From Chloroflexota bacterium (GTDB lineage Bacteria; Chloroflexota; Dormibacteria; Dormibacterales; Dormibacteraceae): 19,202 bases of DNA. Of this stretch, positions 732-12,513 are shown piece by piece. The position numbers and the translations under genes were made by a program. The notes under the pieces are model-generated. The model saw only the letters and a program-made list of their open reading frames with translations. It ran no database searches and was not told where the DNA came from. How positions within the stretch are numbered: position 1 is the first letter of the stretch; every line of letters begins with the position of its first letter. Where the stretch lies: assembly GCA_005880175.1 (NCBI GenBank), contig VBJR01000107.1:1-19202 (forward strand). The letters are read 5' to 3'.

Positions 732-1611
732 CCCGCTCGCCGCCCTGGAGACGTACGCGCACCTGGCCGCCGCGTCCATCCGGTCGCGCGCCCAGTACCG
801 GCTCTCGTTCGCGCTCGACTTCGTCGGGACGTTCGTCAGCGCGCTCACCGACTTCGTCGCGATCCTGGTCCTGTTCAGCCACCTCCCGGTGCTGGGCGGC
901 TGGACCCTGCCCGAGGTCTCGCTCCTGTACGGAGTGGCCGGCATCAGCTTCGCCCTGACCGACATGCTGGTCGGCCACCTCGACGGGTTCGGCGAGCTGA
1001 TCCGGACCGGCACGTTCGACGTCCTGCTGGTGCGCCCGCACGGCAGCCTCTTCCAGGTCGTCGCGTCCGAGCTCGCCATCCGGCGCCTGGGCAAGCTGAG
1101 CCAGGCCGCGGCCGTGCTGGTCTACGCCGTCGCCAACGCGCCCGTCGTCTGGTCGGCGCCGAAGGTCGCCCTCCTGCTCCTCACGCTCGGAACCGGCACG
1201 GCCATCTACGCCGGCATCTGGGTGGCCGGCGCCGCTATCGCCTTCTGGACGACGGAGATCCGGGAGGTCGCCAACGCGTTCACGTACGGCGGCAGCTACC
1301 TGGCGTCGTATCCCATCAACCTGTTCGGCGTGTGGCTGCGCCGCTTCCTCGCGTTCGTGGTGCCGGCGGCGTTCGTCGCGTACTACCCCTGCGTGGTGAT
1401 ACTGGGCAAGCCCGACCCGGTCGCCGGGCTGCCCTGGCTGGGCCTGCTGGCCCCCGCGGTGGCGCTGGCCACGCTCGCCGCCGGCCGCCTGGTCTGGCAG
1501 CTCGGGGTCCGCCACCGGTCGATGGCGTCGACTTCACCGTGGAGGCCGGCGAGATGGTCGGCTACATCGGCCCCAACGGCGCCGGCAAGTCCACCACGAT
1601 CAAGATGCTGA
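724..1611 (+). CDS. ABC-2 type transporter permease, second subunit, with a foreign C-terminal tail
   Basis: Second membrane subunit of the exporter. It starts at GTG 724 inside the end of the previous gene. The native part runs to about base 1515 (about 265 residues) and shows the family pattern: an N-terminal amphipathic region, a first membrane segment near residues 30-55, the conserved block around [14 protein letters not shown], and further segments to the end at LVWQLGVRH. Proteins of this family normally finish within about five residues of that point (RSTGS-like end). Here the frame instead runs on for about 30 residues of Ser/Pro/Arg/Trp-rich sequence that is only the out-of-frame reading of the ATPase gene, stopping at 1609-1611. 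This means the natural stop codon has been lost at a junction near 1514-1520, where the ATPase gene also loses its beginning. Confidence 0.8.
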
Positions 1612-2393
1612 CCGGGATCCTGGTGCCGACTTCGGGCCGAATCCGGGTCGCCGGCCTGGAGCCCGCGCGCCGGCGCACCGAGCTGGCGCGCCGCATCGGC
1701 GTCGTCTTCGGCAACCGCAGCCTGCTCTGGTGGGACCTGCCGCTGAGCCAGTCCTTCGACCTGCTCCGCCACCTGTACCGGGTCCCCGCGCCCGAGCACC
1801 GGCGCCGGCTGGCCGAGCTGGCCGACGTCCTGGAGCTGGGACCGCTGCTGGACCGGCCGGTCCGCCAGCTCTCGCTCGGCCAGCGAATGCGGGGGGAGCT
1901 GACCGCGGCCCTGCTCCACGCGCCCGAGCTGCTGTTCCTGGACGAGCCGACGGTCGGCCTCGACATCGTGAGCCGGGCCCGGGTGCGCGAGTTCCTGCTC
2001 CGGCTGAACCGCGAGCGCGGCGTGACCGTCCTGCTGACGACCCACGACCTGGCCGACATCGAGCGGCTCTGCCCGCGCATGCTCATCATCGACCGCGGCC
2101 GGGTGCTCTACGACGGCGGCACCGCCGAGATCGCCGCGCGCTTCGGCGGCACCAGGACGCTCGTGGTGGACCTGGCCGAGAGCCGGCCGCCGCTCCAGCT
2201 CACCGGCGCGTCGGTGGTCCGCACGGACGGTCCCCGACAGTGGATCCGCTTCCGGCCCGCCGACGCCACCGCCGCCCAGCTCGTGGCCGCCGTGTCGGAG
2301 CAGGCGCCGCTGGTGGACCTCGCGATCGAGGAGCCGGACATCGAGGAGGTCGTGCGCCGGATCTACACCGGCGAGCTGACCGAGGCCGGCTAG
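1521..2393 (+). CDS. ABC exporter ATP-binding protein, N-terminus missing
   Basis: Nucleotide-binding subunit that energises the two permeases (COG4586-type, DrrA-like). Visible motifs are Walker [10 protein letters not shown] (about 1570-1596), the family-specific signature [11 protein letters not shown], Walker [13 protein letters not shown] and switch His in TTHD, followed by a C-terminal accessory region of about 90 residues. The recognisable protein begins abruptly at [11 protein letters not shown] near base 1521. There is no start codon or ribosome site there, and the upstream in-frame codons are only a shadow of the permease. Relatives have about 40-45 more residues, including the A-loop aromatic residue that stacks on ATP. 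About 290 residues remain against the usual 325-335. The stop TAG at 2391-2393 overlaps the stop of the convergent gene. Either the gene is 5'-truncated or the assembly lost roughly 150 bp. Confidence 0.8.
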
Positions 2394-2400
2394 CGCCGGC
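2385..2400. terminator. Hairpin at the convergent stop codons
   Basis: A perfect 6-bp inverted repeat GCCGGC-TAGC-GCCGGC sits exactly over the two opposed stop codons of the ATPase (+) and transglutaminase (-) genes. It has no T-tract on either side. It could act as a compact bidirectional terminator, but a palindrome of this composition is also easy to get by chance in such GC-rich DNA. Confidence 0.3.
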
Positions 2401-11023: not shown

Positions 11024-11035
11024 CCCGCTGGCGGG
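11024..11035 (-). terminator. Short GC hairpin after pckA
   Basis: CCCGC-TG-GCGGG, a 5-bp stem with a 2-nt loop, lies 8 bases past the pckA stop codon. No T-tract follows, so terminator function is only suggested by position. Confidence 0.2.
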
Positions 11036-11043
11036 GGTCGGAC

Positions 11044-12513
11044 TCAGCCCGCCGCCGAGCCCGACTGTCCGATCCGGCCGATGTTGTCGTCGAACCGGCG
11101 CTTGAGCTCGGCCGCCTGGCGGTCGTACTCGGCCGGGTCCGGCCAGGCGCTCCGCGGGTCCAGCACCTCGGCCGGGACGCCGGGGACGGCCGCCGGCACG
11201 TGGACGCCGAAGATCGGGTCGCGCCGGGTCGGGACGTCGCGCAGCCGGCCCTCCACCACCGCCCGGACGATCGCCCGCGTGTGCGCGATCGAGATGCGGT
11301 GGCCGACGCCGTGCGGGCCGCCGACCAGGCCGGTGTTCAGCATCCAGACCTGGGCCCCGTGGCGGCGAACACGCTCGATCAGCAGGTCCGCGTAGGTCTC
11401 GGGCGTGCGGACCAGGAACGGCGCGGCGAAGCACGTGCTGAACGTCGCCTCGGGCTGGGTCACGCCCCGCTCGGTGCCCGCCACCTTGGCGGTGTAGCCG
11501 GACAGGAAGTAGAACCGGATCTGGTCGTCGTTCAGGTCCACCGGGTACGCCGAGCGGGTGTTCTCGGTGAGGCTGTCGTCGTCGTAGTCCGGCACCCGGG
11601 TGTCGGGGTCGAACGGCACGTTCTCGAGAATCGTCCCGAAGTGGTTGGTCGCCGCGTAGATCTCCGGCTCGGCCTCGGCCGAGATCCGGATCGTCTTGGC
11701 GTAGCAGCCGCCCTCGAAGTTGAAGACCCCCTCGTCGCTCCAGCCGTGCTCGTCGTCGCCGATCAGGCGGCGCGTCGGGTCCGAGGAGAGCGTCGTCTTG
11801 CCGGTGCCCGACAGGCCGAAGAACAGCGCCACGTTGCCGTCGGCGCCGACGTTGGCCGAGCAGTGCATCGGCAGGGCGCCCCGCTGCGGCAGCAGGTAGT
11901 TGAGGGCCGTGAAGATCGACTTCTTGATCTCGCCCGCGTAGCGGGTGCCGCCGATGATCACCATGCGGCGGGCGAAGTTGACCAGGATGAACGTCTCGGA
12001 CCGGGTGCCGTCCCGGCGCGGGTCCGCGGTGACCGACGGCAGGGACATGACGGTGAAGTCCGGCTCGAAGCCGCGCCGCTCCTCCTCCGTCGGGCGGATG
12101 AACAGGTTGCGGGCGAACAGGCTGTGCCAGGCGAACTGGGTGACGATCCGCACCCGGAGCCGGTACCGCGGCTCGGCGCCGGCGAAGACGTCCTGGACGT
12201 AGACCTGGTTGCCGGCGACGTAGTCGAGCATCTTGCCGAGCAGGCCGTCGAACCGCTCCTGGTCGATCGGCTGGTTGCCCGGGTACCACCAGATCGCGTC
12301 CTGCGATCCCTGCTCCCGCACGAAGAACTTGTCCTTCGGGGAGCGCCCGGTGTGCTGGCCGGTCGCCGCCGTGAGAGCGCCCGTGGACACCACGGCCGCC
12401 TCATCACCCCTGATCGCGTGCTCGTACAGCTCCGCGGGTGACAGGTTGTGCCAGGTCCTGATGGCCTGGGCGACGCCGACGTGGTCGAGGAGAGGTCGTT
12501 CTACGAGCTGCAT
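11044..12513 (-). CDS. pckA: Phosphoenolpyruvate carboxykinase (ATP) with an internal in-frame gap
   Basis: Gluconeogenic enzyme converting oxaloacetate and ATP to phosphoenolpyruvate, CO2 and ADP. It has the substrate motif TGRSPKDKF (about 55-63), PMHCSAN with a metal-ligand His (about 217), P-loop FGLSGTGKTT (232-241), kinase-2 IGDDEHGW (251-258), FNFEGGCYAK, ENTRSAYP with the conserved Arg (about 320), and the adenine-side C-terminal LSGYTAKVAGTERG and MLNTGLVGGPHGVG blocks. It is 489 residues against the usual 520-540. After SAYPVD (residue 326, base about 11536) the sequence jumps straight to LNDDQIRFYFLSGY, so the block that normally holds HPxxVxFLTADAFGVLPPIS (about 34 residues) is absent. 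That block is near-invariant, so the protein as read is unlikely to work. The ATG at 12513 follows GGGGAG by four bases. Confidence 0.85.
   Translation of the reverse strand: MQLVERPLLDHVGVAQAIRTWHNLSPAELYEHAIRGDEAAVVSTGALTAATGQHTGRSPKDKFFVREQGSQDAIWWYPGNQPIDQERFDGLLGKMLDYVAGNQVYVQDVFAGAEPRYRLRVRIVTQFAWHSLFARNLFIRPTEEERRGFEPDFTVMSLPSVTADPRRDGTRSETFILVNFARRMVIIGGTRYAGEIKKSIFTALNYLLPQRGALPMHCSANVGADGNVALFFGLSGTGKTTLSSDPTRRLIGDDEHGWSDEGVFNFEGGCYAKTIRISAEAEPEIYAATNHFGTILENVPFDPDTRVPDYDDDSLTENTRSAYPVDLNDDQIRFYFLSGYTAKVAGTERGVTQPEATFSTCFAAPFLVRTPETYADLLIERVRRHGAQVWMLNTGLVGGPHGVGHRISIAHTRAIVRAVVEGRLRDVPTRRDPIFGVHVPAAVPGVPAEVLDPRSAWPDPAEYDRQAAELKRRFDDNIGRIGQSGSAAG

Follow-up and report, generated by a model that had tools for sequence, protein, structure and literature searches.

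Five sites within 10 kb of a Dormibacteria-like contig, at each of which a short coding block is missing, are in our estimate (probability roughly 0.9) false joins made during metagenome assembly and not losses by the microbe. The window, i.e., the whole stretch of 19,202 bases analysed here, has a GC content of 73.1%, contains no Ns and appears to be a contig from a metagenome. The proteins closest to its PckA (best 120 of ~8000 scored) come from metagenome sources and Candidatus Dormibacteraeota, and its gene neighbourhood is common to loci of one order, most clearly in L134 (clpP, aminotransferase, MoaDE, SLOG, pckA and VWA); therefore, the host is Dormibacteria-like. The sequence-only reading of this stretch had favoured a systematic assembly fault, and four observations support it: the blocks are present in relatives, the genes show no other decay, clpP carries a foreign patch, and lesions of the same type occur in rpoB of other assemblies.

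Places and sizes of the joins

The affected genes were compared with intact homologues by means of an alignment script tolerating frame changes. Relative to these homologues, ~ 82, 77, 86, 62 and 99 bp are gone at the five joins (range ~ 62–99 bp, or 21–33 codons), where the exporter and S9 peptidase losses were measured against distant relatives and the clpP loss is less exact because a foreign patch adjoins it. The genes and joins are listed below.

724..1515, plus strand: ABC-2 permease (PF06182, E 3.6e-50), C-terminal end gone at join 1
1515..1518, plus strand: join 1; ~ 82 bp gone (permease end and ATPase start); frame changes
1518..2393, plus strand: ABC ATPase (PF00005) without its N-terminal start
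2390..4550, minus strand: transglutaminase (TgpA-like), split over two frames; PF01841, with PF11992 slightly under the cut-off
2522..2525, minus strand: join 2, transglutaminase; ~ 77 bp gone (26 residues, plus one extra base); frame changes
4560..5109, minus strand: clpP, split over two frames; PF00574; Dormibacterial in its N part and its tail, with a foreign patch between
4647..4733, minus strand: 29-codon foreign patch in clpP, adjoining join 3, recognised by comparison with P0121 and 120 homologues
4728..4733, minus strand: join 3, clpP; ~ 86 bp gone (29 residues, plus one extra base); frame changes; reference P0121
9095..11004, minus strand: S9 peptidase, split over two frames; PF00326 and PF07676
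10466..10469, minus strand: join 4, S9 peptidase; ~ 61–64 bp gone (21 or 22 residues, plus two extra bases); frame changes
11044..12513, minus strand: pckA (ATP-dependent PEP carboxykinase); PF01293; 489 aa versus ~ 522 in most relatives
11535..11536, minus strand: join 5, pckA; 99 bp (33 residues) gone; frame kept; reference P0001

The sequence-only reading had placed the joins at about 1515, 2530, 4733, 10468 and 11536, and our positions (1516, 2524, 4731, 10467 and 11536) agree with these to within ~ 10 bases. Frame-aware alignment likewise confirmed its description of a frame switch at four of the five joins, with PckA as the in-frame one. Its count of five genes lacking a block holds for the joins but not for the genes: join 1 takes the end of the second permease together with the ATPase start, and six genes are therefore hit. 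Blocks are indeed missing, but the proposed size of 20–50 codons narrows to 21–33.

For join 1, the reference was a Nonomuraea record with a like three-gene exporter operon (L216), in which the anchor codons lie 84 bases apart, against 2 in the window. The permease aligned with residues 4–258 of 264 of the L216 permease at 36% identity, and the ATPase aligned with residues 22–228 of 249 of its L216 counterpart at 69%. The transglutaminase aligned with P0241 (739 aa) over 713 codons at 95.4% identity with a single lesion and no stops. In comparison with L135 and L136 (58–62% identity), the S9 peptidase lacks 21 and 22 residues, respectively, apart from some one-residue differences, which are expected at this level of identity.

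Beyond the joins, neither stops nor further frameshifts were present in 2006 aligned codons of the transglutaminase, ClpP, PckA and S9 genes, and pseudogene-type decay next to the deletions, looked for in the same codons, was absent. Among the aligned neighbours, no comparable lesion was found in the class V aminotransferase, SLOG, VWA, WYL regulator, MoaD-MoaE and metallo-hydrolase genes; the WYL regulator, compared at 46% identity, shows a single in-frame gap of 6 residues. The earlier statement that no such gap occurs in genes to the right of 12.6 kb stands for the three genes that could be aligned there, to which the test is limited. The XRE, ImmA/IrrE-like, PIN-like, both SDR and first permease genes gave no match within relatives' loci, and the O-methyltransferase gave a single match (47%).

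Two features of the right part of the window may be added. Frames of XRE-like, ImmA/IrrE-like and PIN-like type (12665–14359, plus strand; XRE and PIN named by eye) separate pckA from VWA; in relatives (L134 and G416, for example), the two genes are adjacent. ARAGORN called a tRNA-Thr (CGT) at 18956–19040 (plus strand), overlapping the 3′ end of a same-strand SDR reading frame, which may be a spurious prediction or may mark a further join.

Presence of the missing blocks in relatives and the foreign patch in ClpP

Are the missing blocks regular parts of these proteins? The ClpP and PckA blocks, which had been described as near-invariant, proved to be present in 120 of 120 homologues each (best 120 of ~ 8000 scored). 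The transglutaminase block is kept by 96 of 108 homologues; four of the 12 exceptions are proteins of 494–562 aa without the region, and the other eight possess 65–88% of the block columns. The expectation that would have told against an assembly fault, namely that relatives lack the same segments, is thus not borne out for these three proteins. P0241, which is ~ 96% identical to the transglutaminase of the window, is whole. At the DNA level, the pckA block is whole in 24 of 25 copies of the order, the exception being G414, whose own loss of 111 residues covers 31 of the 33. The S9 segment is present in two relatives (L135 and L136) and the exporter segment in one (L216).

At clpP, a block is not only missing but adjoined by sequence of another kind. 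The identity of ClpP to P0121 is 123/126 before the join, 13/29 in the patch and 27/28 after it, and 11 of the 29 patch residues occur in none of the 120 homologues. The patch looks like ordinary ClpP sequence from another lineage. Its donor was not found: the best matches reached 62.5% over 40 residues in a plasmid collection, 63% among genomes of the phylum (301 examined), 60% among 30 from other groups and 59% in viral contigs. Such a patch was seen at one of the five joins; no foreign sequence was recognised at the pckA and transglutaminase joins, and the relatives of the S9 and exporter genes are too distant to tell. Three odd residues right of the pckA join (relative to 40 homologues) were considered as a possible second patch and rejected, all three occurring among the 120.

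The geometry of the patch, a non-homologous departure followed by a return via conserved sequence, fits a wrong assembly path, and one-sided homologous recombination fits it too. The patch is the strongest point for a biological origin of the joins.

Lesions of the same class in other assemblies

These data raise the question of whether the window stands alone. We screened 42 genomes of the order of G381 for pckA, VWA and rpoB; lesion cases were chosen for split matches, and each count is given out of every genome in which the gene was matched. Cases divided between contig ends were left out (for example, pckA in G406, G274 and G413; VWA in G412, G353, G422 and G336; rpoB in G415, G401 and G416), and frame changes upstream of the likely pckA and rpoB starts were ignored, as was a stop in the reference L231 whose position suggests that it precedes the start codon. 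With these rules, pckA was broken in 4 of 41 genomes, with the frame lost (G416, 83 bp; G417:C66, 116 bp; G414, 331 bp; G405, 31 bp). VWA was broken in 2 of 42, likewise with loss of frame (G365, minus 27 residues; G405, plus an 85-codon insertion), and rpoB in 4 of 34, where 37 (G365), 60 (G308), 14 (G085) and 5 (G411) residues are missing and the frame is lost in each. Three reference rpoB copies aligned in the same way had no such lesion, and no second complete rpoB was found in G365, G308, G085 or G411. As rpoB is essential in bacteria, a cell whose sole rpoB is frame-broken would not be viable; therefore, the rpoB lesions are assembly faults.

The lesions elsewhere resemble the joins of the window in that a short block is gone, the frame is lost and the remainder is intact (G365, G308, G085, G411, G416, G417, G414 and G405). 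They differ in size: the nine deletions elsewhere have a median of 83 bp, close to the 82 bp of the window, but range from 14 to 331 bp with a coefficient of variation (CV) of 0.89, and G405 also carries an insertion. The five losses of the window have a CV of 0.17 (P = 0.001 against an exponential distribution; P = 0.009 with truncation to 20–150 bp). Sizes so unusually alike argue against random coverage gaps, which predict no such uniformity; a fixed inner distance of read mates would yield it, although this is a guess.

The pckA, VWA and rpoB screen gives a background of 10 lesions in 267.7 kb, or 0.72 expected in the window, a rate that is slightly too low because nominal gene lengths were used and some copies are cut by contig ends. 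The probability of at least five lesions in the window is 0.0009 at this rate and 0.07 at three times the rate. Therefore, the window is of low quality even when measured against comparable contigs. Clustering of the joins inside the window was not significant (P = 0.22).

Five other genes, in 89 copies (many cut at locus ends) from 25 pckA-centred loci (20 best matches and five chosen as fragmented), showed no such lesion. This count leaves aside L143, a MoaDE copy containing a stop, and four frame changes between MoaD and MoaE; the latter, at a near-identical place in four genomes, are presumably natural gene borders. The G365 and G405 VWA lesions lie outside the 25 stretches. In 10 aligned transglutaminase loci, G412 lacks 33 residues with a frame change, G274 lacks 42 in frame, and several others have small gaps or a frame change; with references only 48–77% identical, these cases were excluded from the rate.

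Some of these assemblies display further irregularities. In G308 (L202, G308:C9:48800–51200), two Ns stand in place of ~ 22 bp of a relative's pckA, and this scaffold gap is thus too short; this copy (seven residues at the two Ns) was kept out of the four pckA cases. In L236 (G405:C266:14000–16600), which carries the 85-codon VWA insertion, the two matched stretches overlap in the query, suggesting a local duplication. In the G417 bin, one contig (G417:C57) carries an intact pckA and another (G417:C66) a broken one, and the G417:C66 stretch is 98.8% identical to a G406 contig over 1078 bases; this bin may therefore mix two populations.

Origin of the joins and their meaning

Under the favoured reading, an assembly, gap-closing or scaffolding step would have fused genuine pieces over a gap in sampling or resolution of ~ 60–100 bp, without Ns, five times. 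The lost stretches would then be absent from the sequence and present in the organism, and no cell would carry the five joins. At clpP, the path would have entered ~ 87 bp of another organism's clpP and re-entered the right genome through conserved sequence.

Three more specific versions of such a fault were considered. Collapse of GC-rich stretches, suggested by the sequence-only reading, receives at best a weak trend: in relatives' DNA, the fraction of blocks of equal size whose GC content matches or exceeds that of the lost one is 0.02–0.55 for pckA, transglutaminase and S9, and at clpP (0.22–0.71) there is no trend. Tangles of conserved repeats were rejected, the lost blocks being no more conserved than other blocks of the gene; the share of blocks at least as conserved is 0.30 for the pckA of the window, 0.78 for clpP, 0.08 for the transglutaminase, and 0.78, 0.56 and 0.29 for the pckA of G416, G417:C66 and G414, whose blocks were set by anchors and have approximate edges. 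False short overlaps, also suggested earlier, found no support at the single lesion outside the window with a relative close enough to show its edges: in L200 versus L139 (93% DNA identity), the edges of the 83 bp loss share no letters by eye, which argues against short-overlap merging in that case. The relatives of the window's joins are 85–86% identical, too far for base-level edges.

Faults of this general kind are on record. Passages of a paper on genomes from metagenomes ('Accurate and complete genomes from metagenomes', Genome Res. 2020, PMC7111523) describe local assembly errors that not even one read supports and that, if uncorrected, place incomplete or incorrect protein genes in public databases. 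The joins of the window are like the errors treated in those passages in being short wrong joins that leave protein genes partial or wrong and sometimes bring in another organism's sequence; they are unlike them in that the diagnosis there came from read mapping and here from comparing sequences, and five of similar size in one 19 kb contig is dense. The same passages call scaffolds mixing two organisms rare in the authors' experience, which counts against the favoured reading. A description of the present lesion pattern was not found in the titles and abstract openings searched, a body of text mostly outside the subscription literature.

A second possibility, to which we give a slim chance, is that the fault arose in the library or during amplification, as chimeras or as mates wrongly fused across the part of an insert that was not sequenced between them; the reads themselves would then carry the joins. 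Losses of 62–99 bp would fit a fixed inner mate distance, and the absence of overlap in L200 versus L139 agrees with this, but fused mates alone give no foreign patch in clpP.

Rated slightly lower still is genuine loss of the blocks in living cells, either through Ku-type end joining or through recombination with one homologous and one illegitimate side. Ku (PF02735) matches are present in 39 of the 42 genomes of the order of G381, 14 of which have two or three, and the uniform size of the five losses is compatible with such a process. In homology-facilitated illegitimate recombination, a foreign patch has one homologous and one non-homologous border; clpP, with its patch beside a non-homologous join, has this shape, unlike the pckA and transglutaminase joins, where no foreign patch was recognised. 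Were the joins real, which we consider highly improbable, they would point to a Ku-common lineage with frequent deletions of 60–100 bp, at times with foreign capture via one-sided homology, and to the sampling of decaying cells or relic DNA. Against this stand five deletions in 10 kb, four of them frame-changing, yet without other decay; the occurrence of the same losses in 0/120 PckA and 0/120 ClpP homologues (best 120 of ~ 8000 each); and the same lesion type in rpoB elsewhere, where it must be an artefact.

It is hardly conceivable that the blocks vary naturally and can be dispensed with, or that they are put back at the RNA level or during translation: PckA does keep its frame, but every PckA and ClpP homologue among the best 120 of ~ 8000 keeps the block, and translational bypassing skips extra sequence and cannot supply what is absent.

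Thus, the five joins are most likely an ordinary artefact of metagenome assembly and no biological feature. Their value lies in caution for users of such genomes and not in biology: core genes, rpoB and pckA among them, are broken by silent false joins in species-representative assemblies of this order. Seemingly absent genes, apparent pseudogenes and unusual losses of domains in these genomes should therefore be checked first against reads or close relatives.
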